From Lysinibacillus sp. B2A1 (GTDB lineage: Bacteria; Bacillota; Bacilli; Bacillales_A; Planococcaceae), in assembly GCA_002973635.1 (NCBI GenBank), contig CP027224.1:1250501-1314500 (forward strand): 64,000 nucleotides of DNA. The letters are read 5' to 3'. The notes under the pieces were generated by a model. That model saw only the letters and a program-made list of their open reading frames with translations. It did not search any database and had not been told where the DNA came from. The translations under genes were made by a program, and so were the position numbers. How positions within the stretch are numbered: the stretch's first letter is position 1; every line of letters begins with the position of its first letter. Shown in pieces: positions 10,524-54,875 of this stretch.

Positions 10524-10719
10524 TTTATCTTCATTCAGCAGAAGACTCCCACCTCTACAGGTGGTGAGATGAATGCGGTTTTGTTTCCTTTTCAGTGGGT
10601 GTCCAAACACCTACTGAATGAAGATAAAGCCTCTGGCGGATGTCACGGAATCGGAAAGGAGTTCTTTGTGCAAGCACAAAGCCGGTTCCGGACGCAATTA
10701 TGCCGAGGCATAATTGATT
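10524..10719 (+). repeat. Structured intergenic repeat, copy A (short form)
   Basis: Copy A fills the priA-def gap, where these genes are usually adjacent. It begins with a 15-base arm (10524-10538) pairing exactly with 10614-10628. Between them lie a CCACCT/AGGTGG hairpin (10549-10564) and a 12-bp hairpin with a CCAA loop (10591-10618). The latter competes with the outer arm for CTGAA, so two folds are possible. The core GGCGGATGTCACGG (10635-10648) follows. GGAATCGG pairs with CCGGTTCC around a CTTTGTGC/GCACAAAG hairpin (10664-10681), then comes GGACG. The element closes with a perfect 10-bp hairpin (10695-10716). It shares these blocks with copies B to E. It has no transposase and no inverted terminal repeats. 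Confidence 0.85.
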
Positions 10720-10820
10720 AGAAATGATGAAAGAATTATTGAACGGTTGTTTATCTAATATTGACATACAGAGTAGACAAGGCATAGAAGCCTGAAATAG
10801 TAGAAATGAGGAAACAGAAA

Positions 10821-11315
10821 ATGGCTATAAAAAAAGTTGTAGAACATCCAGCAAAGGTATTATCTACGCCATGCACAGAAGTTACAGAAATAAATGAAGA
10901 CATAATTACATTGCTAGATGATTTATATGACACAATGGTTGAATATGATGGGGTTGGTATTGCAGCTCCTCAAATAAATGTTGGCTTACGAGTTGCCATT
11001 GTTGAGCTTGGTGAGGAACGAGATATTTTAGAAATGATTAATCCAACTGTTATTGAGACAGACGGAGCGGAAATAGATATTGAAGGCTGCTTAAGCTTTC
11101 CGGGGTTATACGGTGAGGTTGAGCGCCCTGACTATGTGAAAATCGAAGCATGTGATCGTGAAGGACGCGTTTATGAACTCGAAGCTGGAGGCTTTGATGC
11201 ACGAGCTATTTTACATGAAATTGATCATTTAGATGGCGTATTATTCAATTCAAAAATCAAACGCATTGTCACAGAGGAAGAACTTGAGGCAATGTACGCA
11301 GAAGAGGAGGAGTAA
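10821..11315 (+). CDS. def: Peptide deformylase (type 1)
   Basis: Removes the formyl group from N-terminal formyl-methionine of new proteins, using a metal ion (usually Fe2+). All three motifs are present: GVGIAAPQ (motif 1), EGCLSFP with the metal-binding Cys (motif 2) and HEIDHLDG with the two metal-binding His and catalytic Glu (motif 3). The start was placed at [10 protein letters not shown] because the family begins there and GAGG precedes it; a frame five codons longer lacks a ribosome site. The result is 164 residues. It is followed after one base by fmt, the enzyme that adds the formyl group on initiator tRNA. Confidence 0.96.
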
Positions 11316-11316
11316 T

Positions 11317-12258
11317 ATGACGTCAATAATTTTTATGGGTACACCTGATTTCTCCGCACCCATTTTGCGTATGCTGCACCATGAAGGCTATGATATCAAA
11401 GCAGTTGTTACACAGCCTGATCGTCCAGTTGGTCGTAAGCGTGTACTTACGCCACCACCTGTAAAGGCTGCTGCTATTGAATTAGGCTTACCCGTTATAC
11501 AGCCAGAAAAGCTACGAGGCTCTGAGGAATTACAGCAAATCCTTGATTTACAGCCAGACCTAGTTATAACAGCAGCATTTGGACAAATATTACCGAAATC
11601 ATTACTAGAAGCACCACCGCTTGGATGTATTAACGTTCATGCATCACTTTTACCAAAATATCGTGGCGGTGCACCGATTCATCAAGCGGTTATTGATGGT
11701 GAAAAAGTTACAGGTGTAACAATCATGTATATGGCTGAAAAGCTTGATGCAGGCGATATTATATCTCAGAAGGCTATCCCAATCGAAGAGGACGACCATA
11801 CAGGTGGTCTATTTGATAAGCTGAGTGTAGTAGGTAGGGATTTATTAAAAGATACACTTCCTTCTATTATAAATAGAACAAATAGTCGAACGGTACAGGA
11901 TGAGGAACAAGTAACCTTTGCAAGTAATATTTCACGTGAACAAGAGCGTATCGATTGGACAAAGGATGCTGCAACTTTATACAATCAAGTGCGAGGTCTC
12001 CATCCATGGCCAGTAGCCTATACAACATTTGAAGATGGAAACTTTAAAATTTGGTGGGCAAAGGTTGGCAATACAAAGCATAATACTATTCCTGGTACAG
12101 TCGTTACCATTTCAAAGGATTATTTTGAAGTTGCGGCTGGAAATGGCACAACACTTGCACTATATGATGTTCAACCAGCTGGTAAAAAACGTATGATAGC
12201 TGAAGAATACTTACGTGGTACAGGTTCTAAATTACAGATTGGGGACCAGTTTAAATGA
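11317..12258 (+). CDS. fmt: Methionyl-tRNA formyltransferase
   Basis: Formylates initiator Met-tRNA from 10-formyltetrahydrofolate. The N-terminal Rossmann domain starts [16 protein letters not shown], with the conserved catalytic stretch [21 protein letters not shown] (Asn, His) and the SLLPKYRG folate-binding loop. The C-terminal OB-like domain contains the LHPWPVAYT segment. The start at 11317 has a GAGGAGG ribosome site and gives the expected length (313 residues); a longer frame running back into def has no such support. Its end overlaps rsmB by 4 bases. Confidence 0.97.
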
Positions 12259-13616
12259 GTAAAAAAAGCGTAGTAATTTGGGATGGAAATGTGCGTGATG
12301 CCGCACTTTCTATTCTTATAGCAGTAGATAAAAATCAAGCCTATAGTAATTTACTCTTAAGTGAAACGATAAAGCGACATAAAATTGAAGCGAAAGATCG
12401 AGCTCTTCTAACAGAAATTACGTATGGCACCCTACAATATAAAATGACACTTGATTATTATTTAGAGCCATTTATTCGTGGCAATGTAGATCATTGGGTG
12501 CGCTGGCTTTTACGATTATCTCTATATCAGATACATTATTTAACACGTATTCCGCCACATGCAGCAGTAAATGAGGCTGTAGAAATAGCCAAGCGACGAG
12601 GTCACCAAGGTATAGCCTCAATGGTTAATGGAATTTTACGTTCTGTTTTACGTCAAGGAGTAGCCTCTACAGATCAAATTACAAATCCAATTGAGCGTCT
12701 TTCCATTGAAACTAGTCATCCAGAGTGGTTAGTGCAACGCTTTGTGGATAACTATGGTATAGAAGTAGCAACTGAGATGTTACGAGAAAATAATGTACCA
12801 CCTGTGCAGACTGTCCGTGTTAATACGACAAAGGTAAATATCGAGGAAGCGATTGCCAGCTTAGAGGCAGAAGGCTTAACAGCTAAAAAAAGCGATATCA
12901 TGCCAGAATGCTTACATGTAACAAATGGTCAGCCTGCTCGAACAAAAGCATTCCAAGAAGGGCTGATTACGATTCAGGATGAAAGCTCAATGATTCCAGC
13001 AAATGTCTTACATCCATCCCCTGGTATGAGAGTTTTAGATATGTGTGCCGCACCTGGTGGGAAAACAACACATTTAGCAGAGATTATGAACAATGAGGGT
13101 TCGATTTTAGCAACCGATCTTCACCCACATAAATTAGATTTAATCGACCATAATACAGATCGTCTGGGAATTGATATAGTAGAAACTGCACCGATTGATG
13201 GCCGTAAAGCACCAGATTTTCTACAGCCAGAATCATTTGATGCTATTTTAGTCGATGCACCTTGTAGTGGTCTAGGTGTCATGCGTCGTAAACCAGATAT
13301 AAAATATACAAAGCGTGAAGAAGATTTAGAAAACCTTCAAAAAATACAATTGGCATTGCTCGATGCTGCAACAAAAGTATTGAAAATGGAAGGGAAGCTT
13401 GTGTACAGTACTTGTACAGTCGATAAAAAAGAAAATGAGGGTACTGTAAATGCCTTTTTAACAGCTCATCCTGAAATGGAAGCGATACAACTAGAATCTT
13501 TACCAACAAAATTAGCGGAAAAGCAAGCAAATGGCATGCTTCAAGTCTTTCCACAAGACTTTGGCAGTGACGGTTTCTTCGTTGCCGCCTTTCGTAAAAA
13601 AGGAGGATCCAACTAA
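12255..13616 (+). CDS. rsmB: 16S rRNA (cytosine-967-C5)-methyltransferase RsmB
   Basis: Methylates C967 of 16S rRNA with S-adenosylmethionine. The N-terminal NusB-like RNA-binding domain (about 1-150) is followed by the RsmB/Fmu methyltransferase domain. That domain has SAM motif [18 protein letters not shown], motif [10 protein letters not shown] with one catalytic Cys, and [12 protein letters not shown] with the other, the TC dyad typical of m5C methyltransferases. At 453 residues it has the expected length. It overlaps fmt by 4 bases and shares one base with the rlmN start, so translation is probably coupled along the operon. Confidence 0.96.
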
Positions 13617-14758
13617 TGGTGGATCAAGAGAAATTTAATGAACGAATCAACGATTTAGTTGATGAAGCGGAAGAAAAGCCTGTTCGACGCACAAAAAAAG
13701 ATAAGCCTAATTTAAAGGAATCTGTCTATTCTTTACAACCGAAGCAGTTAGAAGAGTGGTTAAAGGAAAATGGTGAAAAACCATTTCGTGCAGCACAAAT
13801 CTTTGATTGGCTTTACAATAAGCGTGTAAAGACATTTGCTGAAATGTCTAACCTTTCAAAGGGATTACGAGAAAAGCTTGAAGCAAGTTTCGCTTTAACG
13901 ACATTGTCAACCATTGTTCAGCAAGAATCCAAAGATGGTACGATTAAATTTTTATTTCAATTACAGGACGGCTATTCTATTGAAACAGTATTAATGCGTC
14001 ATGATTACGGTAACTCTGTTTGTGTGACAACACAGGTTGGATGCCGAATTGGCTGTACGTTCTGTGCCTCTACTTTAGGTGGTTTAAAGCGTCATTTATT
14101 AGCAGGAGAAATTGTGGAGCAAGTTGTCAAAGTTCAGCAGACATTAGATGAAATGGGAGAACGTGTCTCACATATCGTTATTATGGGAATTGGAGAGCCT
14201 TTCGATAATTATGATGCGATGATGAACTTCTTAAAAGTCATAAACCATGAAAAAGGATTAAATATCGGAGCGCGTCATATTACTGTTTCAACTTCAGGTA
14301 TTGTACCAAAAATTTATCAATTTGCGGATGAACAGCTTCAAATTAACTTTGCTGTATCTCTGCATGCACCGAATCAAGAGGCACGCCAAAAATTAATGCC
14401 AATCGCACGTGCTTATAAATTGGATGAATTGATGGAAGCTGTTCGATACTATACACAAAAAACTGGAAGACGTGTAAGTTTTGAGTATGGATTAATGTCA
14501 GGTGAAAATGATTCAGTAGAAATTGCAGAAGAATTATCTGCGTTAATAAAAGGAATTAAGTGCCATGTGAACTTAATTCCAGTAAACTACGTACCAGAAC
14601 GTGATTATGTGCGTACATCTCGTAGTCAAATTTTTGCTTTTGAAAAAACATTAAAGAAAAATGGTATTAACGTAACAATCCGCCGTGAGCAAGGCTCTGA
14701 TATTGCTGCTGCGTGTGGTCAATTACGTGCACAAGAGAGATCTGAAGAGACGAGGTGA
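13616..14758 (+). CDS. rlmN: 23S rRNA (A2503-C2)/tRNA (A37-C2) methyltransferase RlmN, radical SAM
   Basis: A radical SAM methyltransferase that methylates C2 of A2503 in 23S rRNA and A37 of some tRNAs. The [4Fe-4S]-binding CRIGCTFC motif (CxxxCxxC) is at about residues 143-150. [12 protein letters not shown] and the SLHAPN segment are typical of the family. The methyl-carrying Cys is in the C-terminal DIAAACGQL. The first 35 residues form a charged extension ([12 protein letters not shown]) that is longer than usual. The ATG overlaps the rsmB stop by one base. Confidence 0.96.
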
Positions 14759-14761
14759 CCA

Positions 14762-15514
14762 GTGTTGAAATACACAGTCGAAAGTGATATTGGGTTAAAA
14801 CGAGCAATTAATGAAGACCGTGCTGCATTTTTTAAACGTCCAGATGGACTTGCACTAGCACTCGTAGCGGACGGCATGGGTGGTCATAATGCTGGCGATG
14901 TTGCGAGTGATATGGCAATGAAACAAATGGAACATGTTTTTTTACAGGCAGAAGCACATCATTTTGCATCTACAACATCAAAAGAAGAGTGGTTATTACA
15001 AACAGTCACGCAACTGAATAAAAATATTTATGACTATTCTTTATCACATGAAGACTGTAAAGGAATGGGCACGACGTTTATTGCTGTGTTAATTGAAGAT
15101 AATCATTGCTTTATTGCACATATTGGTGATAGTCGGGTGTATTATTTCTTTGATGATGGTGCACAACAAATAACAAGAGATCATTCATACGTAAATGTTT
15201 TGGTTGAAAATGGTGAGATTAGTGAAGAGGAAGCCTTGACACATCCAAAGAAAAATTTCATCCTACGAGCTTTAGGCACAGAAGAAAGCATTAAACCAGA
15301 CTTTTATGAAGTGGATTTAGCATCAGAATCGTATTTACTCATTTGCTCCGATGGTTTAAGCAATAAATTAACAGTGTATGAAATGGCATCTATTATTACG
15401 TATCCAGATACCATAGAAGAAAAGGGAAGAAAACTTGTGGAATTAGCAAATGCCAGCGGGGGGGAAGACAACATCTCCCTCGTACTGCTCACTAGGCAAG
15501 ATGAGGAGGTGTAA
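14762..15514 (+). CDS. prpC: PP2C-type protein phosphatase PrpC
   Basis: A Mn2+/Mg2+-dependent Ser/Thr phosphatase that removes phosphates placed by PrkC, its neighbour. PP2C motifs are visible: NEDR near residue 19, VADGMGGHNAGDVAS holding the metal-binding Asp and Gly, MGTTFIAVL, AHIGDSRVY, LLICSDGLSNKL and SGGEDNISLVLL. At 250 residues it is normal for the family. GTG at 14762 and TTG at 14765 are both served by the GAGGTG ribosome site; GTG was preferred. It is three bases before prkC and is expected to share its transcript. Confidence 0.95.
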   Translation: MLKYTVESDIGLKRAINEDRAAFFKRPDGLALALVADGMGGHNAGDVASDMAMKQMEHVFLQAEAHHFASTTSKEEWLLQTVTQLNKNIYDYSLSHEDCKGMGTTFIAVLIEDNHCFIAHIGDSRVYYFFDDGAQQITRDHSYVNVLVENGEISEEEALTHPKKNFILRALGTEESIKPDFYEVDLASESYLLICSDGLSNKLTVYEMASIITYPDTIEEKGRKLVELANASGGEDNISLVLLTRQDEEV

Positions 15515-15516
15515 GA

Positions 15517-17493
15517 ATGCTTGTAGGAAAACGAATTAGTGACCGCTATAAAATTATTGAACTCATTGGTGGCGGAGGTATGTCCAATGTCTATTTGGCA
15601 CATGACATGATCTTAAACCGTGATGTAGCGATAAAAGTATTACGCTATGATTTCACAAATGAAGATGAATTACATCGACGTTTTCAACGTGAGGCACTTT
15701 CTGCTACAAGCCTTACACATCCAAATATTGTTAGTATATATGATGTAGGCGATGATGGAGATCTACATTATATTGTAATGGAGTATGTTCAAGGAAAAAC
15801 ATTAAAGCAGTACATACAGGAATATGCACCAATTTCTCCTGCTAGAAGTGTGCACATTATGAAGCAGTTGACGTCTGCTATTGCTAATGCCCATGAAAAT
15901 CACATTATTCATCGTGACATTAAGCCTCAAAATATTTTAATGGATGCTGAAGGAAATGTGAAAGTAACTGATTTTGGTATAGCAATGACGCTTAGTGCAA
16001 CATCCTTTACACAAACAAATTCTGTGCTCGGTACTGTACACTATTTATCACCAGAGCAGGCTCGTGGTGGTACAGCAACAAATAGGTCAGATATATATGC
16101 ACTTGGTATTGTATTATATGAATTATTGACTGGCGAATTACCATTTTCAGGTGAATCGGCTGTTTCGATTGCCCTGAAACATTTACAAGCAGAGACACCA
16201 TCTGTACGTGCATTTGATGCTACAATACCACAGAGCTTGGAAAATGTTGTGCTAAAAGCTACAGCAAAGGATGCTGCTCATCGTTATTCCACAGTAGAAG
16301 AAATGCAGGAAGATTTAGAAACAGTTTTATCACCTAATCGTATAAATGAGCCTAAATTTGCTATTCCATTTGATAATGATGCCACTAAGGCTATACCTAT
16401 TATAAAAGACCAAGCGCTACGAAATAATGAGGATTTAACGAAAACTAGAGCCATTGAACCAATTACACAATCAAAACCGAAACAAGACCCTAAAAAGACA
16501 ATTGACAAGGTAGAGCCTATTAAGAAAAAGAAAAAATGGCCGAAATATGTTGCTGTGTTATTTATTGCAGTAATTGTGATGTTCTTATACTTTTTATTTG
16601 CTACGGAGCTCTTTAGCCCGAAAAAGTTTGCTGTACCTAGTGTGACAGGTTTAACTGTTGAGGAAGCAGAGAAAAGATTAGAAGCAGAGGGCTTTGTTGT
16701 AGGTGATATAAAGTCACGTAATGATGAGGAAATTGAAAAGGATAAGGTGATTGAAACAGACCCAGCAGAAAAGGCAGAGCGTGTCAAAGGAACGGAAGTG
16801 GATATAATCGTCAGTCTTGGAGAAGAAATGACGAAACTTGATGATTATACAGGGCGACCATTTAGCCAAGTAGAAGCATTACTAAAGGACACATTTGCGG
16901 ATATAGACTTTGAAGAAGTTTATTCACAAGAGCCAGCTGGCACCATTACTGGTCAGGAGCCAATAGAAGGTACTGAAGTAATCGCCAAAGATACAACTTT
17001 ACTATTTAAAGTTAGTAAGGGAGTACAATTGGTTAAAGTGGGAAGTATTGTGAATTATACTAAGGCTCAAGCAGAAGCGTATGTAAAAGATAAAGGCTTA
17101 AAATTGCATATAGTTCGTGAAGAAAATCACAATACAATACCAGCGGGAAGTATTATTTCACAATTGACAAAAGCTGAAGCAGAAGTTGAGGTAGGTTCAA
17201 CAGTAAGTGTTATTTTAAGCAAGGGACCTGCTAAAAAGCCTGATAAACCTTTTGTCGAAACAATCAAAATTGAGTATAAACCAAATGAGGAAGGCTTAGA
17301 ACAAACCGTTCGAATTGAAATTCAAGATAAAACACATTCAATGGTAGATACGTATGACACATTTCCTATCACGGCTGATATTGAATACAAAATACAGCTT
17401 GTTATTGGGGAAGGTCAGGAAGCGGCCTATAAAATAATTCGTGATTCGGAAATCATTGCTTCACGTAAAATTAACTATGATGATATTAAATAA
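15517..17493 (+). CDS. prkC: Serine/threonine protein kinase PrkC with PASTA repeats
   Basis: A membrane eukaryotic-type kinase that senses muropeptides/lipid II through outside PASTA repeats. In B. subtilis it controls germination and phosphorylates several cytosolic proteins. The kinase domain (about 10-270) has the glycine-rich loop IGGGGMSNVY, VAIKVLR lysine, HRDIKPQN catalytic loop, DFGIA and SPEQARGG. A juxtamembrane Lys-rich stretch leads to one membrane helix near residues 343-366, then three PASTA repeats (about 372-437, 440-508, 509-576) and a C-terminal extension of about 80 residues. At 658 residues it fits the family. It sits between its phosphatase and the GTPase RsgA, a known PrkC substrate in B. 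subtilis. Confidence 0.96.
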   Translation: MLVGKRISDRYKIIELIGGGGMSNVYLAHDMILNRDVAIKVLRYDFTNEDELHRRFQREALSATSLTHPNIVSIYDVGDDGDLHYIVMEYVQGKTLKQYIQEYAPISPARSVHIMKQLTSAIANAHENHIIHRDIKPQNILMDAEGNVKVTDFGIAMTLSATSFTQTNSVLGTVHYLSPEQARGGTATNRSDIYALGIVLYELLTGELPFSGESAVSIALKHLQAETPSVRAFDATIPQSLENVVLKATAKDAAHRYSTVEEMQEDLETVLSPNRINEPKFAIPFDNDATKAIPIIKDQALRNNEDLTKTRAIEPITQSKPKQDPKKTIDKVEPIKKKKKWPKYVAVLFIAVIVMFLYFLFATELFSPKKFAVPSVTGLTVEEAEKRLEAEGFVVGDIKSRNDEEIEKDKVIETDPAEKAERVKGTEVDIIVSLGEEMTKLDDYTGRPFSQVEALLKDTFADIDFEEVYSQEPAGTITGQEPIEGTEVIAKDTTLLFKVSKGVQLVKVGSIVNYTKAQAEAYVKDKGLKLHIVREENHNTIPAGSIISQLTKAEAEVEVGSTVSVILSKGPAKKPDKPFVETIKIEYKPNEEGLEQTVRIEIQDKTHSMVDTYDTFPITADIEYKIQLVIGEGQEAAYKIIRDSEIIASRKINYDDIK

Positions 17494-17504
17494 GGGGGAA
17501 TTGG

Positions 17505-19710: not shown

Positions 19711-19728
19711 CGTGAGGAGGAGATAGTC

Positions 19729-19830
19729 CTGAAAGTCTATACTTTTCAGTTGCCAAAAGTTGTGAGTAGTATTACACGTACATGTATTAATCTTTTTAAA
19801 AAAGACAAGAAAGTAAAAAAATCCGACTAA
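19729..19830 (+). CDS. spoVM: Stage V sporulation protein SpoVM, small amphipathic peptide, CTG start
   Basis: SpoVM is a tiny amphipathic helix that recognises the positive curvature of the forespore membrane and anchors SpoIVA, so that the spore coat can assemble. The predicted peptide has 33 residues. Its beginning, (M)KVYTFQLPKVVSSITR, aligns with B. subtilis MKFYTIKLPKFLGGIVR, including the Pro that breaks the helix; the lysine-rich tail is longer. The position after thiN and before rpmB is the conserved one. No ATG, GTG or TTG exists in frame between the thiN stop and the peptide; CTG at 19729 sits 6 bases after a strong GAGGAGGAG ribosome site, so CTG appears to be the start. Many gene finders would miss it. 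Confidence 0.85.
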   Translation: MKVYTFQLPKVVSSITRTCINLFKKDKKVKKSD

Positions 19831-19848
19831 CTCTGGTCGGATTTTTTT
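19814..19848 (+). terminator. Terminator after spoVM
   Basis: The stem AAAAAAATCCGAC/GTCGGATTTTTTT overlaps the last codons of spoVM and ends in a T-run. It closes the long yloC-spoVM transcription unit. Confidence 0.9.
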
Positions 19849-38848: not shown

Positions 38849-39203
38849 TTATCTTCATTCAGCAGAAGACTCCCACCTCTACATGTGGTGAGATGAAAGC
38901 GGTTTTGGTTCCTTTTCAGTGGGTGTCCAAACACCTACTGAAATAGCGGAACTCAGTCTAAGAACACCACGTCCAGTGGCAACGACTGAGTGACCAACAT
39001 CATGTTGACCTAAAGCCTCCGGCGGATGTCACGGATTTTCAAAGGAATGAATAAAAGGATGTTAGCCTAAAACCTTCGCATCCTGCGAAAACGGCTAACT
39101 GACCTGCATCGTGCAGGCCTGAGCACAATTCAAAATCCGGACGCATTGTTTATCTGTGCGAAAGCGAAGCGGCAGCTACAATTACGCCAAGGCGAAATTG
39201 ATA
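38849..39203 (+). repeat. Structured intergenic repeat, copy B (long form)
   Basis: Copy B starts like A (TTATCTTCATTCAG, hairpin CCCACCTCTACATGTGG, then the TTCAGTGGGTGT hairpin) but carries two extra modules. Module B1 has outer stem ACTCAGTC/GACTGAGT (38951-38958, 38984-38991), inner CCAC/GTGG and a second hairpin CAACAT/ATGTTG. The core GGCGGATGTCACGG (39021-39034) follows. CGGATTTT (39032-39039) pairs with AAAATCCG (39132-39139). These enclose module B2: outer GTTAGCC/GGCTAAC, inner TTCGCA/TGCGAA, second CCTGCA/TGCAGG. A TGTGCGAAAGCGAAGCGGC unit and the CAATTACGCC/GGCGAAATTG end hairpin close it 17 bases before the recG ribosome site. Confidence 0.85.
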
Positions 39204-41987: not shown

Positions 41988-42980
41988 ATGAAATTAGCGC
42001 TTGATGGAATGGGTGGAGACAACGCACCAAAATCAGTTGTTGAAGGTGCGCTATTGGCATTAGAGCAAATTCCAAATTTAGAGATACAATTATATGGTCA
42101 GCAAGAAAAGCTTGAGCCATTTTTAAAAATACATGACAGATTGACTGTTATACATTGTGAAGAAGTTGTGGAAGGAACTGACGATCCAGCACGCGCTGTT
42201 CGTCGTAAAAAGGATTCTTCTATGGCGAAAATAATGGATGCAGTGGAAGTAGGGAAAGCAGATGCATGTCTTTCTGCAGGCAATACGGGAGCTTTAATGG
42301 CAGGAGGCCTGTTTAAAGTCGGGCGAATTGAAGGGATTGCTAGACCTGCGCTTGCGACTACATTACCAACATTAGATGGTAAGGGTTTTTTAATGCTAGA
42401 TCTTGGGGCAAATGCTGATGCACGTCCTGAGCATTTATTGCAATATGCAATTATGGGTGATATTTATGCCAAAAAGGTAGGTGGCTTACAAAAGCCACGT
42501 ATTGGGTTGCTTAATATCGGCACTGAGGATAAAAAAGGGAATGAATTAACAAAAGCTGCTTTTGAACTGTTAAAAGAAGCGGATATAAACTTTATTGGCA
42601 ATGTGGAAGCACGTGATTTACTAGAAGGGGTAGCGGATGTTGTTGTAACTGACGGTTTTACAGGAAATATGGTGCTGAAATCGATTGAAGGTACAGCGGG
42701 CGCTTTATTTTCAATGCTGAAGGAAGCATTTATGTCTTCTACAAAAACAAAAATTTCCGCAGCCCTTATGAAAAATAATTTACGTGATTTGAAAAATAAA
42801 ATGGATTATACAGAGTATGGTGGTGCAGCTTTATTTGGCTTACAGGCACCTGTTATTAAGGCACATGGTTCATCCAATGCAAAAGCCATTTACAGTGCAA
42901 TTCGTCAAGCAAGTACAATGGTAGAGCATACAGTGATCTCAACGATTACAGAGACAGTACGTCACTTAGAAATTGATTAA
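41988..42980 (+). CDS. plsX: Phosphate acyltransferase PlsX
   Basis: Converts acyl-ACP to acyl-phosphate, the first step of phosphatidic acid synthesis with PlsY. The 330-residue protein starts [20 protein letters not shown] and has [50 protein letters not shown] and [19 protein letters not shown], all family hallmarks. It follows fapR by 11 bases. Its stop codon lies inside the first hairpin arm of repeat C, so the repeat abuts the gene. Confidence 0.97.
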
Positions 42981-43217
42981 CTTCTTTCAGTTGAAAGAAG
43001 TTAAAGCCTCCGGCGAATGCCATGGAATCGGAAAGGAGTTCTTAAAGGGTGTTAGCCTAAAACCATCGCATCCATGCGATAACGGCTAACTGACCTGCAT
43101 CGGTAAAAAACGCCACGTCCTGTGGCTTTACCGAAATGACCGACATCGTGTCGGCCCTCACGCAGGCCTAAGCACAAAGCCGATTCTGGACGCAATTATT
43201 CCGAGGCATAATTGATT
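42977..43217 (+). repeat. Structured intergenic repeat, copy C (nested form)
   Basis: Copy C separates plsX from fabD, genes normally adjacent. It opens with a perfect 12-bp hairpin (42977-43004), a different sequence from the opening of A, followed by the shared AAAGCCTCCGGCGAATGCCA core. GGAATCGG (43024-43031) pairs with CCGATTC (43180-43186). Inside is module C1: outer GTTAGCC/GGCTAAC, inner ATCGCAT/ATGCGAT, second hairpin CCTGC/GCAGG. The loop of this second hairpin is interrupted by a complete second module (43102-43161): GGTAAA/TTTACC, GCCAC/GTGGC, CCGACA/TGTCGG. The end is the CAATTATTCC/GGCATAATTG hairpin, 7 bases before the fabD ribosome site. Confidence 0.85.
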
Positions 43218-45527: not shown

Positions 45528-45563
45528 AATACGGTAGAAACTATTAGGAAGGCAGATTGTTCA

Positions 45564-46328: not shown

Positions 46329-46331
46329 TAA

Positions 46332-49300: not shown

Positions 49301-49913
49301 TGCAATTGAAGAATATGATAGAGTGCTAGAACGTCATTTATTCTTAACAGAGCAACGTGAGGATCTGCTTGCTGCTCAGGAAACATTGCATGAAGCCATT
49401 AAAGAAATGGACGAGGAGATGACATTACGATTTAGCGAAACATTTTATGCTATACGTGATCAATTTAAACGTGTATTCCGTGAATTATTTGGCGGTGGGC
49501 AAGCAGATTTAGTATTATTGGAGCCTCAAAACCTACTTGAAACAGGTATAGAAATTGTGGCCCAACCTCCAGGGAAAAAATTGCAAAATCTAAGTTTGCT
49601 TTCTGGTGGTGAGCGTGCACTTACTGCCATCGCATTATTGTTCTCCATCTTAAATATACGACCTGTACCTTTCTGTATTTTGGATGAAGTAGAGGCTGCG
49701 TTAGACGAGGCAAATGTTGTTCGATATAGTCAATACTTGAAAAAATTTAGCCATGACACACAATTCATTGTTATCACGCATCGTAAAGGAACGATGGAGG
49801 GAGCAGATGTATTGTATGGAATTACAATGCAGGAGTCAGGTGTTTCGAAACTTGTATCAGTGAAATTAGAAGATGAACCCGTACTTGCGGAGCAAAGGAG
49901 CGAACAAGCATGA
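46332..49913 (+). CDS. smc: Chromosome segregation protein SMC
   Basis: The long ATPase of the SMC-ScpAB complex, loaded at ParB-parS sites, which aligns and condenses chromosome arms. In 1193 residues: N-terminal Walker A GPNGSGKSNVTDAIRW (about 32-47), two long Gln/Glu-rich coiled coils (about 170-500 and 680-1020), a central hinge (about 505-675, with LDGDIVNAGGSLTGGA), and the C-terminal ATPase half with signature LLSGGERALTAIALLF and Walker B FCILDEVEAALDEANV. Length and layout are standard. It overlaps ftsY by 4 bases. Confidence 0.98.
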   Translation: MFLKRLEVIGFKSFAERIGIDFVPGVTAVVGPNGSGKSNVTDAIRWVLGEQSAKSLRGSKMEDVIFAGSDSRKQLNFAEVTLVLDNTDEQLAFSYTEVSVTRRVYRSGDSEYLLNNQQCRLKDITDLFMDSGLGKEAFSIISQGRVDEILNSRPDDRRSIFEEAAGVLKYKLRKKKAEHKLVETDENLYRVLDILHELDSRLEPLEIQASSARDYVQMSTELKDFDITILVHDLKNCAQSLHALEAEFTELSETEQKQAHSIATVEKQTASIRKLLKELDDYLDTTQADFVNATMEVERWDGRKALMAEKRQNASNQLLQLNASLEETKAEVEALILQEVEKKELFTEKQQDVQVLKQSIKQLEQSLNRSVTEIEQEIEEQKNRYIDSLNEEATIKNELKNIDQQLAQQKVMAARMSDQTDEIGQELAQSIAEKDKLIVAHNITTKELHGKLEQYESLQIELKKVNTSFNEKQDMLYKAYQHQQQLKARKETLAELEADFSGFFQGVKEVLLARDKGDLVGIEGAVAELIQVDGKYSQAIETALGAASQHIVTSDERHAQQAIHWLKQKRAGRATFLPKTVIKSRKINPSTIQLAIEHPAFVQMADGLVTFHEDNRTIVENLLGNVIVASSLEGASQIARLCSFRYRVVTLDGDIVNAGGSLTGGATKQQSSLFTRKAELDGLIVKLEALEASIFSAEKAVSVEKEKLAALRDQVEQLKLEGEQLRKDELQQASRIRELEVVEKSLSARVSYASNETQDVKTREETLLAQREVATNRLTTLATELLEINGTVEHLSKIKLQSETEKDVLREQLAEKRSQLAVIQEQMSQVQIATAEIALQLNKTQQKMNSISQEIIWLQSDESTKLLSDEEVEEQVATWKERRESLQNTITQKKDEKVAQQQQLAALEEQLKELQRIHKGYLEAIRANELKQSRLEFEIKSFNEQLEENYQLILEEAEEIAIEIIDEEHMRRRVKLLKKSIEELGPVNLGAIEEYDRVLERHLFLTEQREDLLAAQETLHEAIKEMDEEMTLRFSETFYAIRDQFKRVFRELFGGGQADLVLLEPQNLLETGIEIVAQPPGKKLQNLSLLSGGERALTAIALLFSILNIRPVPFCILDEVEAALDEANVVRYSQYLKKFSHDTQFIVITHRKGTMEGADVLYGITMQESGVSKLVSVKLEDEPVLAEQRSEQA

Positions 49914-51151
49914 GTTTTTTTAAACGTTTAAAAGATAAGCTGATGGGTAATCCAGCAGAAGAAGAAAAAGTTGTAGAATTTAATGAAAATGAGGCTAGGA
50001 TTGCCGATGAGCAGAAGCTTGAGGATTCCGCAGAGCCTGCTCTTATCGAAACAACTGTAGAAGAGATTGACAAGGTAGAGACTTCAAAAACAGAGAGTCC
50101 TATTGAAACGGAACTTCCTGAATTAAAGGAGGAACCGGAGCAGCAAGAAGTGCAAGAGGTTGCGCTTGTGGAAGAGAAAAAACCTTCTGCATGGTCCATT
50201 ACACAAAAATTCAAAGCGGGTCTGGAAAAAACGCGAAATTCCTTTACCTCGAAAGTAAACGATTTAGTGGCACGTTATCGAAAAGTGGATGAGGATTTCT
50301 TTGAAGAGCTAGAAGATTTATTACTGCAGGCTGACGTTGGCTTTGAAACAGTGATGGAGCTAATGGAAAAATTACGTTTTGAGGTTCAACGAAAGAATAT
50401 TAAAGATACAAATGGCATCCAAGCAGTGATTTCTGAGAAGCTTGTTGAAATTTATGAGCAGGGTGAAGAAGATTTAATTGATTTAAACATGCAGCCCGAT
50501 GGTGAGCTAACAGTGATCTTATTTGTTGGAGTCAACGGCGTTGGGAAAACAACAACAATTGGTAAACTCGCACATCGTTTGAAATCGCAGGGTAAAACGG
50601 TTGTTTTGGCTGCGGGTGATACGTTCCGTGCTGGAGCCATCGATCAATTACAAGTATGGGGTGACCGTGTTGGCTGTGAAGTAATTAAACAATCAGAGGG
50701 TTCTGACCCAGCAGCAGTGATGTATGATGCTATTCGTGCAGCTAAAAATCGCAAAGCAGATGTGTTAATTTGTGACACAGCTGGACGTTTGCAAAACAAA
50801 GTCAATTTAATGAATGAGCTTGAAAAAGTACATCGTGTCATTTCGCGTGAAATACCAAATGCACCACATGAAGTATTATTGGCTTTAGATGCAACTACTG
50901 GCCAAAATGCACTTGTGCAGGCCCAAACGTTTAAGGAAGCGACAAATGTTACAGGAATAGTCTTAACGAAGCTAGATGGTACAGCAAAAGGTGGTATTGT
51001 CCTCGCAATCCGTAATAAATTACACATTCCTGTTAAGTTTGTAGGTCTTGGTGAGAAGATGGATGATCTTCAGCCATTTGATGCAGAACGCTATGTCTAT
51101 GGTTTATTTGCTGAAGGGTTAGATAAAGAATTACAATATAATGAGGATTAA
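49910..51151 (+). CDS. ftsY: Signal recognition particle receptor FtsY
   Basis: The membrane-associated SRP receptor GTPase that docks SRP-ribosome complexes at the translocon. The 413-residue protein has an acidic N-terminal A region (about 12-95, Glu-rich) for membrane and translocon contact, then the N domain and G domain: GVNGVGKTTTIGKLA (G1), DTFRAGAIDQL, CDTAGRLQNK (G3), TKLDGTAKGG (G4) and GLGEKMDDLQPF. It is coupled to smc by a 4-base overlap. In many Bacillales ylxM and ffh follow closely; here 480 bases with repeat D intervene. Confidence 0.97.
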   Translation: MSFFKRLKDKLMGNPAEEEKVVEFNENEARIADEQKLEDSAEPALIETTVEEIDKVETSKTESPIETELPELKEEPEQQEVQEVALVEEKKPSAWSITQKFKAGLEKTRNSFTSKVNDLVARYRKVDEDFFEELEDLLLQADVGFETVMELMEKLRFEVQRKNIKDTNGIQAVISEKLVEIYEQGEEDLIDLNMQPDGELTVILFVGVNGVGKTTTIGKLAHRLKSQGKTVVLAAGDTFRAGAIDQLQVWGDRVGCEVIKQSEGSDPAAVMYDAIRAAKNRKADVLICDTAGRLQNKVNLMNELEKVHRVISREIPNAPHEVLLALDATTGQNALVQAQTFKEATNVTGIVLTKLDGTAKGGIVLAIRNKLHIPVKFVGLGEKMDDLQPFDAERYVYGLFAEGLDKELQYNED

Positions 51152-51155
51152 CAGA

Positions 51156-51430
51156 TTTATCTTGATTGAGCAAATCTTTACTGAGAAACCGCAGCGTCAG
51201 GTACAGATTACTCCCACCTCTCTATATGTGGCGAGATGAATGCGATTTTTTTTCTATTCAATTGGCGTACAAACACCGCTGAAATAGAGGAACTCAGGCT
51301 AAAAATCTTCACATCTTGTGAAAACACCTGAGTGAACAGCATCGTGTTTGCCTAAAGCTTTAGGCGGATGTCAAGGATTAATGAGGTGCTTTCTAGTGAG
51401 CTCGAAAATTCTGGACGAATTTACTCTAGG
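51156..51430 (+). repeat. Structured intergenic repeat, copy D (diverged)
   Basis: The most diverged full copy, between ftsY and ylxM. It begins TTTATCTTGATTGAG (two changes from copy A) and then gains about 35 extra bases before ACTCCCACCTC and GAGATGAATGCG. Module D1: outer ACTCAGG/CCTGAGT (51292-51298, 51327-51333), inner TTCACA/TGTGAA with TCT loop, second hairpin around CATCG. The core follows as TAAAGC then TAGGCGGATGTCAAGGA; the partner TTCTGGACG is at 51409-51417. The final CAATTATGCC-type hairpin is not recognisable. The 140 bases after it hold no gene, then a promoter. Confidence 0.75.
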
Positions 51431-51569
51431 GTGCAATGGATAGTTATGTAATTTAGTTAGGTGAAACGCTCGTTTGTAAAATGGACATTTCATTGTTTAA
51501 AGGGAATGCTGCTATAGGTGAAAGATGCCTGAAAGCATTGAATGAAGGCTTTTAGACAAGGGAATTACC

Positions 51570-51599
51570 TTGACACAGACGGGCGCTTTTCGTTATGAT
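51570..51599 (+). promoter_or_regulatory. Promoter of ylxM-ffh
   Basis: TTGACA (51570-51575) and TATGAT (51594-51599), separated by 18 bases, about 34 bases before the ylxM start. Confidence 0.75.
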
Positions 51600-51632
51600 A
51601 CAAATGACTAAGGACAGGAGGAGAAACATTCG

Positions 51633-51968
51633 ATGCTACTTGAAAAAACAACACGCATGAACTTTCTCTTCGACTTTTATCAAGCATTATTAACAGATAA
51701 GCAACGAAGTTATATGGAACTGTATTATTTAGATGATAACTCACTTGGAGAAATCGCTGAACTATACGGAATTTCACGTCAAGCTGTTTATGATAATATT
51801 CGTCGAACAGAAGCGATGCTTGAAGAATATGAAGAAAAACTTTGTTTATTAGACAAATTTCAAAAACGTACACAAATGCTTGCACAGCTAACAGCAGGAA
51901 TAACAGGACAAAGCATGACGTCTGAAGAACAGCTGGCGCTTATTGAGCAGTTGAAAGAATGGGATTAG
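51633..51968 (+). CDS. ylxM: YlxM/p13-like DNA-binding protein, SRP-associated
   Basis: A 111-residue helix-turn-helix protein of the UPF0122 family, conserved next to ffh and reported to affect SRP function. It contains [42 protein letters not shown] (read across 51684-51810), a sigma-70 region-4-like helix-turn-helix, then a charged helical tail. The ATG has an AGGAGGAG ribosome site. It lies 12 bases before ffh. Confidence 0.94.
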
Positions 51969-51980
51969 GAGGCGAAAGCA

Positions 51981-53339
51981 ATGGCTTTTGAAGGATTAGC
52001 GGAACGACTCCAAGGAACGATCCAAAAGATTAAAGGTAAAGGCAAGGTATCGGAACAAGACGTTAAAGAAATGATGCGTGAAGTCCGATTTGCTTTAATC
52101 GAGGCGGATGTTAACTTAAAAGTAGTCAAAGAGTTCGTGAAAAAGGTCAGTGAACGATCAGTTGGTGTAGATGTTATGCAAAGCCTAACACCTGGCCAGC
52201 AAGTAATTAAAATCGTACAGGACGAATTAACGGAACTGATGGGTGGTGAGCAAAGCCCTATTAAATTTAATACAAAGCCCCCAACAGTAATTATGATGGT
52301 TGGCTTACAGGGCGCAGGGAAAACAACGACTACAGGTAAACTTGCAAATGTGTTACGTAAAAAATATAATCGTAAGCCACTACTAGTAGCAGCAGATATT
52401 TATCGCCCTGCGGCTGTTCAGCAATTACAAACATTAGGTAAACAGTTATCTCTTCCTGTATTTGCATTAGGCACTGATGTTTCTCCTGTAGAAATTGCAC
52501 GTCAGGCAATTGAACTGGCGAAAGAAGAGCATCATGATGTCGTTATTATCGATACAGCTGGTCGTTTGCATATTGACGAAGATTTAATGCAGGAATTAAA
52601 AGATATACGTGCGTTAAAAGAGCCAGATGAAGTATTCCTAGTTGTAGATGCTATGACAGGTCAGGATGCTGTAAATGTAGCAGAAAGCTTTAATGAAGCA
52701 ATTGGTATTACCGGAGTAGTTTTAACAAAACTTGATGGTGATACACGTGGTGGTGCGGCATTATCAATTCGTTCCGTTACTCAGAAACCAATTAAATTTG
52801 TTGGTATGGGCGAAAAAATGGATGCACTGGAACCTTTCCATCCAGAACGAATGGCGTCTCGTATATTAGGGATGGGTGATGTTCTATCGCTTATTGAAAA
52901 GGCTCAGGCAAATGTTGACGAAGCAAAGGCCAAAGAATTAGAGGAAAAATTTAAATCCCAAACCTTTACGTTTGATGATTTTGTTGAACAATTACAGCAA
53001 GTGAAGAAAATGGGACCTCTTGATGAAATTTTGAAAATGCTGCCTGGCGCAAATAAAATTAAAGGCTTAGACAATGTTAAAGTAGATGATAAACAAATGG
53101 GCCGTGTAGAAGCGATTATTTATTCCATGACAACGGCAGAAAAGACGAATCCAGAAATCATTAATGGCAGCCGTAAAAAGCGTATTGCAAAAGGCTCTGG
53201 AACGTCTATTCAAGAGGTGAATCGTTTATTAAAGCAATTCGATGAAATGAAAAAAATGATGAAGCAAATGACTGGAATGGCAAGTGGTAAAGGGAAGAAA
53301 AAAATGAAATTACCAGGCTTTGATTCATTGTTTAAATAA
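51981..53339 (+). CDS. ffh: Signal recognition particle protein Ffh
   Basis: The SRP54 GTPase that binds signal sequences and scRNA. The 452-residue protein has the N domain, the G domain with GLQGAGKTTTTGKLA (G1), DIYRPAAVQQL, DTAGRLHIDEDLM (G3), TKLDGDTRGGAAL (G4), GMGEKMDALEPFHPERMASRILGMGD and a Met-rich M domain (about 325-452, ending MKKMMKQMTGMASGKGKKK). It pairs with FtsY, encoded just upstream. The ribosome site GGAGGCG precedes the ATG. Confidence 0.98.
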   Translation: MAFEGLAERLQGTIQKIKGKGKVSEQDVKEMMREVRFALIEADVNLKVVKEFVKKVSERSVGVDVMQSLTPGQQVIKIVQDELTELMGGEQSPIKFNTKPPTVIMMVGLQGAGKTTTTGKLANVLRKKYNRKPLLVAADIYRPAAVQQLQTLGKQLSLPVFALGTDVSPVEIARQAIELAKEEHHDVVIIDTAGRLHIDEDLMQELKDIRALKEPDEVFLVVDAMTGQDAVNVAESFNEAIGITGVVLTKLDGDTRGGAALSIRSVTQKPIKFVGMGEKMDALEPFHPERMASRILGMGDVLSLIEKAQANVDEAKAKELEEKFKSQTFTFDDFVEQLQQVKKMGPLDEILKMLPGANKIKGLDNVKVDDKQMGRVEAIIYSMTTAEKTNPEIINGSRKKRIAKGSGTSIQEVNRLLKQFDEMKKMMKQMTGMASGKGKKKMKLPGFDSLFK

Positions 53340-53366
53340 TAATTTTTAGGTGTTAAGAAAAAACAC

Positions 53367-53395
53367 TTTACAAACAACCTAAACATTGATAATAT
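53367..53395 (+). promoter_or_regulatory. Promoter of rpsP-khpA
   Basis: TTTACA (53367-53372) and TAATAT (53390-53395) with 17 bases between; GGAGGTG follows before the rpsP start. Confidence 0.75.
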
Positions 53396-53433
53396 ACTAT
53401 CTTGTGTGAAACTTATTCGGAGGTGCTATTAAA

Positions 53434-53706
53434 ATGGCAGTTAAAATTCGCTTAAAACGTATGGGAGCTAAAAAGTCTCCTTTCTATCGTATCGTAGTTG
53501 CAGATGCTCGTTCACCACGTGACGGTCGTCAAATCGAAACAGTTGGTACTTACAACCCACTAACTCAACCAGCTACTGTAAACATCGATGAAGAGAAAGC
53601 TCTTAAATGGTTAGCTGACGGTGCAAAACCATCAGATACAGTGCGTAACTTGTTCTCAGAACAAGGTATCATGGAAAAATTCCATAACCAAAAATTCAGT
53701 AAATAA
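53434..53706 (+). CDS. rpsP: 30S ribosomal protein S16
   Basis: An early-assembling small-subunit protein. The 90-residue sequence ([39 protein letters not shown]) is a clear S16. Codon choice is more biased than in neighbours, as expected for a highly expressed gene. GGAGGTG lies 8 bases before the ATG. It is co-transcribed with khpA, 15 bases downstream. Confidence 0.98.
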
Positions 53707-53721
53707 TCGGGGGCGACGTTT

Positions 53722-53955
53722 TTGAAGCAGCTGATTGAAGCAATCGTTTTACCGTTAGTCGATTATCCAGAAGAAGTTCGTATTGAGACGGATGAAAATG
53801 CAAATCGAATTGTTTATAAACTTTTTGTTCATTCAGAGGATCGAGGGAAAGTCATAGGCAAGCAAGGGCGAGTAGCGAAAGCGATTCGTACAATTGTTTA
53901 TTCAGCGGCAGGTAGTCACCATCAAAAAAAGACCTACGTCGATATATTGGATTGA
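53722..53955 (+). CDS. khpA: KH-domain RNA-binding protein KhpA (YlqC)
   Basis: A 77-residue single KH-domain protein that, with KhpB/Jag in other Firmicutes, binds RNA and influences cell elongation. The GKVIGKQGRVAKAI segment holds the GxxG loop (GKQG) of a KH fold. It starts at TTG (53722) after a GGGGGCG site. In B. subtilis ylqD and then rimM follow; here ylqD is absent and 930 bases containing repeat E intervene. Confidence 0.95.
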   Translation: MKQLIEAIVLPLVDYPEEVRIETDENANRIVYKLFVHSEDRGKVIGKQGRVAKAIRTIVYSAAGSHHQKKTYVDILD

Positions 53956-54076
53956 TAGAAAAGATGTTCACGCTCTTTTACACGCGGCAAGCACAGGAGA
54001 GTCCTGATTGGTATGTTTACATGCATTTAGGAATTCGGGGTGGTCTTGAGCATGGAGCGTAAAATCTGGACTATGA

Positions 54077-54110
54077 AGGAGGGAGCTTGTCGGTTCCTTC
54101 CTTTTTTTAT
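54077..54110 (+). terminator. Terminator after khpA
   Basis: AAGGAGGGAGC pairs with GGTTCCTTCCTT through several G-T pairs around a short loop and is followed by six more Ts. The remaining bases up to repeat E (54111-54349) hold nothing recognisable. Confidence 0.75.
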
Positions 54111-54349
54111 CTTCTTTCATCTTTAGGGATGGGATGTTTAATGGGATGTTACCTGGTGCCTTGTGCCTCATAGGTATATACTTAAAGTAATTATATTGAG
54201 GAATAATTGAGCATAATGACATAAGAGATACTTTAGCTAAAACATCTTCTCCAAAATGTTCATCTGCTTTTTAGAGATAAGTGTGAGAATGGTTACTTTT
54301 TAACTCTGATTAGCAAGTAGCTTAAAGGAGGCAGTATGTTTTAACATTT

Positions 54350-54875
54350 TTTATCTTCATTCATCAGAAGACTCCCACCTCTACAGGTAGTGAGATGAAT
54401 GCGGTTTTGGTTCCTTTTCAGTGGGTATCCAAACACCTACTGAAATAGCGGAACTCATTCTAATAACGCCACGTTCTGTGGCAATTTATCTGTGCGAAAG
54501 CGAAGCAACAGCAACACGGTTTTAACTGTGCGAAAGCGAAGCAACAGCAACACGGTTTTATCTGTGCGAAAGCGAAGCGACAGCAACACGGTTTTATCTG
54601 TGCGAAAGCGAAGCGACAGCAACAACAACAACACACGACTGAGTGACCAACATCATGTTGCTGTCGCTGCGTTAGCACTACGCTTTCGCACAAAAAACAT
54701 CTGTTGGTCCAAAGCCTCTGGCGGATGTCACGGATATTCAAAGGAATGAATTGTGCGTGGACAATTCAAAATCCTGACGCATTGTTTATCTGTGCGAAAG
54801 TGAAGCGACAGCAACAAATGTTTTCTGTAGCGAAAGCAAAGCGGCAGCTACAATTACGCCAAGGCGAAATTGATA
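54350..54875 (+). repeat. Structured intergenic repeat, copy E (largest, with insertions)
   Basis: This 520-base copy lies directly before rimM, where ylqD sits in B. subtilis. The 5' part matches B closely (TTTATCTTCATTCA, CCCACCTCTACAGGTAG, TTCAGTGGGTATCC). Module E1 keeps outer ACTCATTC/GACTGAGT and inner GCCAC/GTGGC, but a four-unit tandem array (54485-54634) is inserted beside the inner hairpin. Its second hairpin CCAACA/TGTTGG is split by an insert flanked by AACATC repeats (54649-54654, 54696-54701) that holds an inverted array unit (54661-54692). The core GGCGGATGTCACGG (54720-54733), GGATATT/AAAATCC, two more array-like units and the CAATTACGCC/GGCGAAATTG hairpin follow. The end is 4 bases from the rimM ribosome site. 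Confidence 0.85.
54485..54634 (+). repeat. 36-base tandem repeat array inside copy E
   Basis: Four units begin TGTGCGAAAGCGAAGC at 54491, 54527, 54563 and 54599, exactly 36 bases apart, each ending CAGCAACA(CGG). Units 1-2 have GAAGCAACAGC, units 3-4 GAAGCGACAGC, and the last trails into CAACAACAACA. Further single units lie at 54790 and in copy B (39155). The array is in one frame open as RKRSNSNTVL-like repeats, but it has no start signal or conserved coding context. Confidence 0.85.

Follow-up and report, generated by a model that had tools for sequence, protein, structure and literature searches.

The closest described systems are of three kinds, and a catalogued RNA family must be set beside them. 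The bcr1-bcr3 repeats of Bacillus cereus are called MITE-like in the accessible part of PMC3446304, which places them often in UTRs and operon gaps, while the available portion of PMC6542083 links BCR mobility to a TTTAT motif with no known enzyme and gives 11 to 130 copies of bcr1. The IS200/IS605 family, as far as the accessible text of PMC4227781 goes, makes no target duplication and is specific for T-rich sequence on the 5' side only; excerpts of PMC2993954 give TTTAA (or TTTAAA) and TTAT as the targets of IS605 and IS606, whose mini-elements keep about 100-150 bp of each end. REP elements, moved by RAYT (TnpA_REP), are palindromic, intergenic and multi-copy, and are described with a 5' foot. 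Finally, Rfam RF01690, Bacillaceae-1, is catalogued as a small RNA gene.

The window, by which we mean the whole 64-kb stretch of Lysinibacillus sp. B2A1 DNA that was analysed, contains five repeats, each a copy of a small mobile DNA element rich in hairpins, hereafter the carrier, with swappable hairpin modules. The carrier resembles bcr1-bcr3 in its TTTAT target and in the lack of an enzyme, a comparison made by description and not by sequence; unlike the carrier, the first bcr was reported to be restricted to the B. cereus group. Like mini-IS605 and mini-IS606, the carrier has a T-rich left flank, no fixed right flank and no target duplication at clean sites; unlike them, it holds internal nested modules, has no autonomous partner that we could find and places the pairing partner of its flank 3' of the hairpin. 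It shares the palindromic, intergenic, multi-copy habit of REPs, but it is larger, has a T-rich target and a putative guide 3' of the hairpin in place of the 5' foot, and is not found beside the 20 RAYT-like genes checked. As for Bacillaceae-1, what Rfam lists as an RNA gene is here a multi-copy module, nested, exchanged in place and without an RNA-type wobble preference.

The carrier and its modules

The carrier is separate from the three-stem module that recurs within it. This module is RF01690, with four matches in the window at or above the gathering cut-off (35 bits; Table 1), whereas the carrier itself (core plus end hairpin) gave no Rfam match at gathering level within the window. Bacillaceae-1 is the part that was already known; no paper describing the carrier was found in a literature search that lay outside the subscription-only bcr papers. 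Plasmids, phages and viral contigs gave no carrier match, the viral scan being of one exact pattern. When five loci were searched against Rfam at E up to 1, a match to rli49 (26.3 bits, cut-off 40, E 0.35) and one to SCARNA6, the latter in locus L250 and away from the carrier, were both taken as chance. The sub-threshold rli49 match adjoins and partly overlaps the carrier in locus L222.

The carrier core has 74 matches in the 5.5-Mb genome (at most two mismatches allowed; 0 in a reversed control), and RF01690 has 94, 93 of them above its cut-off. Across the bacterial order the carrier model matches in 166 of 261 genomes and 13 of 19 sampled genera, and Bacillaceae-1 was not found in 8 of 32 genomes of the genus, while some others hold at least 112 copies. 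The smallest carrier is about 133 nt long. Two subfamilies can be told by their flank, subfamily 1 lying 3' of TTTAT and subfamily 2 3' of TTTAA. Modules are nested within one another's hairpins, and Bacillaceae-1 sits in at least two kinds of repeat. An origin from a tandem array was rejected, the 36-nt units alone being tandem.

Table 1. Parts of the five carrier copies, in window coordinates
Feature	Position	Strand	Basis
Target flank TTTAT of copy A	10524..10528	+	sequence; site empty in G001
Copy A carrier, 190 nt, between priA and def	10529..10718	+	carrier-rear model (R1) match 10626-10718, 109 bits; absent in G001
Copy B carrier, 350 nt, upstream of recG, flank CTTAT	38853..39202	+	sequence, RF01690, gene families, R1
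Bacillaceae-1 module, copy B front	38942..39008	+	RF01690, 64.6 bits
Bacillaceae-1 module, copy B core hairpin	39051..39117	+	RF01690, 74.7 bits
36-nt hairpin unit before right-end hairpin, copy B	39145..39180	+	boundaries by eye
Copy C carrier, 236 nt, directly after plsX stop codon, before fabD, flank ATTAA	42981..43216	+	sequence
Bacillaceae-1 module, copy C core hairpin, third hairpin split by nested module	43041..43107	+	RF01690, 40.8 bits
Second Bacillaceae-1-like module, 58 nt, in loop of first module's third hairpin, copy C	43102..43159	+	sequence, ssDNA fold
Copy D decayed carrier, flank TTTAT, between SRP54-type GTPase gene (ftsY) and ylxM	51161..51441	+	sequence, R1
Bacillaceae-1 module, copy D	51283..51350	+	RF01690, 55.2 bits
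Copy E carrier, 520 nt, before rimM, flank TTTAT	54355..54874	+	sequence; site empty in G003 and G014
Bacillaceae-1 module, copy E, interrupted by 36-nt units	54444..54707	+	sequence by eye, repeats
Two 36-nt units before right-end hairpin, copy E	54781..54851	+	boundaries by eye

These results bear on an initial annotation of the window, made from its letters. The five copies and all the stems that it quoted are present in the sequence, but a family of five is far too small and the statement that no named family resembles it fails for the module, a known Rfam match existing for this part and none for the carrier. A covarying core stem turns out to be a difference between the two subfamilies. 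The recurring module placed between core and end is real, yet it does not occur once in every copy: copy A is a short carrier without it, and a chimera of a subfamily 1 front (CTTCATTC) with a subfamily 2 rear (CGGAATCGG..., ATTATGCCGAGGCATAATTGAT); copy B holds two modules and one 36-nt unit, a unit missing at the corresponding position from the G001 form of copy E; copy C has one, interrupted by the 58-nt second module in a hairpin whose uninterrupted form, CCTGCATCGTGCAGG, is seen in copy B; and copy D has a single one. Copy D does not lack its end, as had been claimed, since the R1 model detects its rear and end, in decayed form, at 51354-51441 (35.8 bits). In copy E the one module is broken up by 36-nt units, direct ones at about 54485-54624 and one inverted at about 54660-54701; it was seen by eye only, being unreported by the Rfam and R2 models.

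Insertion sites, folding and orientation

Mobility of the carrier is shown by orthologous sites that are empty in related genomes. Its insertions lie 3' of TTTAT or TTTAA and end in AATTGAT, with no duplication at the three clean empty sites (a slash marks the junctions): (i), the copy E site, empty in G014 and in G003 (ATTTTTTAT/ATGAGG, against ATTTTTTAT/CTTC...TTGAT/ATGAGG when filled) and occupied in G001 by a copy without Bacillaceae-1; (ii), a site at window position 7012, empty in G006 (TGTTAA/CGTCTGC) and filled in G022 and G024; (iii), one G001 insertion (TTTTAT/AGCAAAA in G003, TTTTTAT/CTTC...TTGAT/AGCAAAA when filled). At the copy C site, 8 of the 20 genomes examined carry the element and 12 do not, and the modules differ between species. 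Direct repeats lie on both sides of copy C (TTGATTAA) and across the ends of a decayed G001 copy (TTAATTT), and a target duplication could explain either. Among 38 parsed elements position -3 of the 5' flank is T in 37, position -4 in 38 and position -5 in 32, and the 3' flank is unspecific, bearing in mind that the parser itself required -2 to be A and -1 to be A or T, and that a few of the 38 are the same site in different genomes.

Hairpins lie near both carrier ends, a front hairpin and a local end hairpin, and the minimal element with its flank, folded as single-stranded DNA, forms two hairpins (z -11.9). The local end hairpin is Watson-Crick in 650 of 711 cells (79 rows); the fold of locus L045 pairs the end with the core instead, and the right-end sequence can pair either locally or with upstream GCCTCCGGCG, each arrangement being partly supported. 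An internal ATAAA/TTAAA, complementary to the flank and lying 3' of the front hairpin, can pair with the flank and so extends this hairpin.

Elements between oppositely pointing genes follow the replication fork in 32 of 41 cases (p 0.0004, two genomes), and orientation with the fork is reported for the IS200/IS605 family in the accessible text of PMC5371812. Where both neighbouring genes oppose the fork the split is 5 to 5, and taken overall the bias (61 of 74 and 59 of 69) is no stronger than the one the flanking genes show (p 0.48 and 0.26).

We consider it probable that the carrier is a non-autonomous mobile element with mosaic modules, which enters single-stranded DNA at the replication fork as IS200/IS605 elements do. 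It would be moved by a transposase supplied in trans, the strand as written would be the transferred strand and would lie in the lagging-strand template, and pairing of the flank with the internal ATAAA/TTAAA would guide target choice. The larger copies are mosaics: parts of their hairpins are taken up or substituted by Bacillaceae-1, nested Bacillaceae-1 and 36-nt units. From species to species these modules come and go at a given site, probably through recombination among copies and template switching at palindromes. Stems would then change in step because complementarity between palindrome arms is maintained in the DNA itself, through hairpin recognition or arm-to-arm copying.

Paired changes in the stems

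The description of a structured family whose stems differ while pairing and loops are kept is borne out by both-sided changes above shuffles. In the Bacillaceae-1 alignment pairing holds in 96.4% of cells, and 14 of the 18 pairs show changes in both partners, neither value being reached in any of 500 shuffles; the carrier rear is 96.8% paired (0 of 500 shuffles as high) with 12 of 27 pairs changed on both sides (14 of 500), although both structures were drawn from the same sequences or their consensus, which favours them in the test. The count of further pair types was not above shuffles (131 of 500 as high for Bacillaceae-1, 366 of 500 for the carrier rear). The initial annotation went on from compensatory change to selection on structure, and here the paired changes are real but selection as RNA is unsupported: one-sided changes in Bacillaceae-1 helices 1 and 2 give 11 G.U against 16 A.C, while tRNAs of the same loci give 15 against 0. 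Because these changes show no preference for G.U over A.C, unlike those of tRNAs, it is more likely that the Bacillaceae-1 stems are maintained as palindromes in DNA than as RNA on this strand; 138 of their 227 both-sided changes cannot go via G.U. Carrier helices 2 and 3 lie between Bacillaceae-1 and tRNAs (24 G.U, 13 A.C), which leaves room for some RNA-level selection, and the carrier long-range stem has 77 against 45.

The paired change could also be mainly mutational, arms correcting each other by template switching with no need for structural selection. This is a lesser but serious possibility, compatible with the fork-entering element that we prefer. Wobble intermediates are few and transversion-type double changes many, unusual flank bases are matched in the internal arm at loci L260 (TTTCAC/GTGAAA), L261 and L250 (by eye), and minimal hairpin and module alternate at one place in copy E; yet loops and right-end sequence are conserved too, mismatches occur at this same position in certain copies (L270, L277), and the process is inseparable here from recognition of single-stranded DNA.

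We find it rather unlikely that the family is a transcribed structured RNA (a small RNA or a 5' or 3' UTR element), its stems kept by RNA-folding selection and its spread secondary. Such a reading would account for the strong paired change, the conserved loops and the G.U excess of the carrier, and it agrees with the location of copies between co-directional housekeeping genes, with the 'Y' that Weinberg et al. 2010 gave Bacillaceae-1 as an RNA (PMC2864571, in the part accessible) and with the transcription of about half of the B. cereus bcr repeats (excerpts of PMC3446304). It is at odds with the wobble counts of Bacillaceae-1, with the nesting of this module inside other repeats and with its uneven presence among genomes of the genus.

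The mobiliser and what the elements mean

No mobilising enzyme for the carrier was found. Y1 and TnpB loci were searched for carrier ends by motif, the carrier scan covering Y1 loci other than L378-L404, and 21 were searched by the carrier model with filters off (best E 0.65). Intact IS200-like elements have ends unrelated to the carrier, no autonomous element sharing its ends was found, and a clear parental insertion sequence, which would have told against the initial annotation, did not emerge for what is nonetheless a mobile element. Y1 (PF01797, E 0.001) is absent from 11 of 32 genomes of the genus, five of which hold at least 109 Bacillaceae-1 copies, and carrier and Y1 presence show no association (261 genomes, p 0.17). 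An early hypothesis saw in the core a scaffold for TnpB guide RNA; it was abandoned, as comparison by eye with the regions 3' of nine TnpB genes showed no relation. An independent carrier copy lies beside a TnpB gene (L154), another inside a TnpB remnant (L159), and a third 1.4 kb from a Y1 fragment (L135).

In a bolder version, which we regard as improbable, a fork-coupled single-stranded element would move without a transposase of its own lineage, its hairpins would be landing sites for other modules, and on insertion the inner arm would be copied from the target flank, rewriting the guide. Still less probable is a REP-type element moved by RAYT. The carrier is indeed short, palindromic and intergenic, a Y1 protein of about 190-260 residues and RAYT-like appearance is encoded in many genomes of the order (usually once per genome), and Bacillaceae-1 lies within 1.5 kb at two of eight Y1 gene or fragment loci of the genus (L135 also with a carrier core); the Y1 matches at those two loci are fragments, however, carrier and Y1 presence are not associated, and none of the single-copy, RAYT-like Y1 genes of 20 genomes from other genera has a carrier within about 2.5 kb, with one weak Bacillaceae-1 match among them. 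That Bacillaceae-1 acts as an RNA of the opposite strand, where A.C mismatches would read as G.U, is scarcely credible: A.C exceeds G.U over all pairs on this strand (48 to 16, or 31 to 14 without three helix-end pairs), but some of this surplus comes from the third hairpin, which is misread wherever a copy has an insert in it, the counts are 16 to 11 (p 0.44) without that hairpin and the outermost pair, and the published model is on this strand.

If the bolder version is true, Bacillaceae-1 would be a hairpin module inside other repeats and not an RNA gene. For at least one genus, what is catalogued as an 'RNA family' proves to be a DNA module that is mobile and nested. The case illustrates clearly that compensatory changes of textbook appearance do not have to reflect RNA function, and the balance of G.U and A.C in one-sided changes offers a simple check for other multi-copy candidate RNAs. 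The carrier is widespread and inserts beside housekeeping genes with no known enzyme, which makes its mobiliser a concrete search target.

The repeat, its modules and their distribution

The composite repeat, read from the sequence in five copies within the 64-kb window, consists of a carrier, a core with an end hairpin, and of modules held by its larger copies. The recurring structured module is present as the initial annotation described it (an outer stem plus two hairpins, the inner one with a TCC loop and the second with a CATC loop), but it is not nameless, being identified by an Rfam search of the window as Bacillaceae-1 (RF01690). The carrier matches nothing in Rfam at gathering level in the window, and at E <=1 five loci that hold carriers give only two sub-threshold matches, judged chance, one partly overlapping a carrier. 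In its minimal parsed form (~133 nt) it comprises a front hairpin, the core GCCTCYGGCGGATGTCA, a core hairpin and the right end AATTAYGCC..GGCRWAATTGAT. One such minimal element with its flank (L045) is predicted to form two long hairpins as single-stranded DNA (-43.8 kcal/mol, z -11.9), with a similar predicted fold as RNA (z -10.7).

Modules and other structured features, in window coordinates
Feature	Position	Observation
Bacillaceae-1 module	38942-39008	RF01690 match
Bacillaceae-1 module	39051-39117	RF01690 match
Bacillaceae-1 module	43041-43107	RF01690 match
Bacillaceae-1 module	51283-51350	RF01690 match
36-nt units	39145-39180	conserved GAAAGC..AGCG centre
36-nt units	54485-54624	conserved GAAAGC..AGCG centre
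36-nt units	54781-54851	conserved GAAAGC..AGCG centre
Ribosomal protein L19 leader	56200-56241	RF00556, 36.2 bits, at gathering limit

In its own genome (5.5 Mb, single contig), the carrier core has 74 matches (<=2 mismatches; control 0) and RF01690 has 94, 93 over cut-off. Of the 32 genus genomes, 8 have no RF01690 match and the highest count is at least 112, and a model of the carrier built from 20 sequences finds it in all 32, including those eight. Of 261 genomes and 19 genera sampled across the order, RF01690 is found in 202 and 17, the carrier in 166 and 13. Bacillaceae-1 is also housed by another long palindromic repeat unrelated to the carrier (GTTGATTGGAG...GGAAATCAAC), in the own genome (L002-L008, L014-L023; several times paired, ~480 bp apart) and elsewhere; in other genera (L169, L173, L174, L181, L189, L194, L197) the module adjoins terminator-like hairpins or sits in other GC-rich repeats. 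A carrier lies directly 3' of rplQ (named by eye) in three species of one genus (L254, L257, L274), where it has the stem TTTAATTTGAATC/GATTCAAATTAAA and is the sole carrier scored in the genomes G139, G104 and G131.

Nesting was counted by regular expression for seven features in 38 parsed elements, giving lower bounds: Bacillaceae-1 stands in front in at least 12 and in the core hairpin in at least 14, is nested in at least 8, and the third hairpin holds an inverted 36-nt unit in at least 9; 17 elements matched none of the seven. One hairpin arm tends to be occupied or replaced by modules. Another genus (L183) also has core modules of the GTTAGCC...GGCTAAC subfamily, so the two-module layout is probably not recent. 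Among related 36-nt units the outer stems vary and pairing is kept (TGTATC/GATACA, TGTAGC/GCTACA, TGTACC/GGTACA). GCGAAAGC and GCGAAGC are unusually stable DNA mini-hairpins.

Filled and empty sites, target and orientation

Copy C lies in the plsX-fabD gap, precisely at the stop codon of plsX (window 42976-42981), whose TAA ends the target. Of 25 genus genomes searched, 20 were compared: an element immediately follows plsX in eight, badly decayed in one of them, and is lacking in 12. Content varies among the filled sites, for example a bare carrier in a 156-nt gap (G003), Bacillaceae-1 in front (G014), both modules and a further nested one (G024) or 36-nt arrays (G006). G001 (aligned blocks mostly 90-95% identical) lacks copy A and has four elements or decayed elements without window counterpart. 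The copy E site is empty in G003 (ATTTTTTAT^ATGAGG; ^, junction) and G014 (ATTTTTAT^ACGAGG), filled elsewhere (ATTTTTTAT^CTTC...AATTGAT^ATGAGG), and in G001 holds a form without Bacillaceae-1, its front stem completed by TGAAGAT. An insertion of G001 is matched exactly by an empty site in G003 (TTTTAT^AGCAAAA), and the site at window 7012 is empty in G006 (TGTTAA^CGTCTGC). These three empty sites reveal no target duplication beyond two-base ambiguity; two other sites may have one, with TTGATTAA on either side of copy C and TTAATTT on either side of a decayed copy in G001.

The 38 elements are the distinct ones among 57 parsed records, although a few represent one site in several genomes. In the 5' flank, with one mis-parsed record (L048) included, T stands at -5 (32/38), -4 (38/38) and -3 (37/38), followed by A and then by T (26) or A (12), where A at -2 and the choice of A or T at -1 were requirements of the parser; the 3' flank has no comparable base preference. 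Where the core-adjoining arm was recognised, TTAT is accompanied by ATAAA or ATAA (11) and TTAA by TTAAA (6), the mis-parsed record excepted; the arm went unrecognised in 20 records, many of which have a module at that place. Odd flank bases are mirrored by the inner arm at L260, L261 and L250 (e.g. TTTCAC with GTGAAA), and the inner arm is mismatched to the flank at L270 and L277.

Replication was oriented from dnaA at position 1 in the own genome and from a contig start resembling DnaA, by eye, in G014, with the GC-skew sign of the sequence stretches covered switching from the 3.25 to the 3.5 Mb bin (3.35 Mb used) and from the 2.5 to the 3.0 Mb bin (2.85 Mb used), respectively. The fork direction is shared by 61 of 74 elements in the own genome and by 59 of 69 (out of 70 matches) in G014, and flanking genes share it nearly as often (113/146, p 0.48; 105/134, p 0.26). 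Of 41 elements between reading frames (called mechanically) that point in opposite directions, 32 follow the fork (p 0.0004); of 10 between frames that both run against it, 5 do. This is in part like the lagging-strand insertion of IS608 and ISDra2, as described in the available excerpts of PMC5371812 and PMC6006769.

Upkeep of the stems

Paired change is strong: cells changed on both sides of a pair number 92 in the Bacillaceae-1 alignment (21 in shuffles) and 58 in the carrier rear alignment (20 in shuffles); in neither does the count of further pair types exceed shuffles, and wobble intermediates are rare. Counts of G.U versus A.C are only indicative, because related copies are not independent: for the module (155 matches, 110 full-length without gaps, 79 distinct), the per-pair sum is 11 versus 16 in helices 1 and 2 with the outermost pair left out, 14 versus 31 without the three helix-end pairs, and 16 versus 48 over all pairs, the third hairpin being distorted by inserts. 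Eleven distinct tRNAs of the same loci show 15 versus 0 in their acceptor and T stems (p 0.0001 against 11/16). Moreover, 138 of 227 both-sided module changes are unable to pass through G.U. These counts favour complementarity of Bacillaceae-1 being kept up in DNA. Carrier counts (96 distinct rows out of 103) are 24 versus 13 in the core helices (p 0.01 against tRNA) and 77 versus 45 in the long-range stem; the carrier may be under some RNA-level selection.

Relation to known mobile elements

Intact IS200-like genes of the own genome have ends that differ from the carrier's. Genes or fragments of Y1 (PF01797) occur in 21 of the 32 genus genomes and bear no relation to copy number there; across the 261 genomes, 116 have both carrier and Y1, 50 the carrier only, 58 Y1 only and 37 neither (p 0.17). 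The 3' regions of TnpB genes are unrelated to the carrier, and Bacillaceae-1 lies within 1.5 kb of two of eight scanned genus Y1 loci, both adjoining fragments. Many order genomes also have a Y1 protein of ~190-260 residues, usually one per genome (L405-L424, L146), which from its look resembles a RAYT; such genes were rejected as the carrier's partner, no carrier being nearby in 20 loci. On these grounds the carrier is not filed as an IS200/IS605 element, though its insertion resembles that of one.

IS605 and IS606 use the targets TTTAA and TTAT, and their mini-forms retain 100-150 bp of each end (PMC2993954, in excerpt); the Bacillus cereus bcr repeats are tied to TTTAT and MITE-like, according to excerpts of PMC6542083 and PMC3446304. 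In behaviour, the level at which the two were set side by side, the carrier looks like a bcr1-like element from another lineage, with modular nesting in addition.
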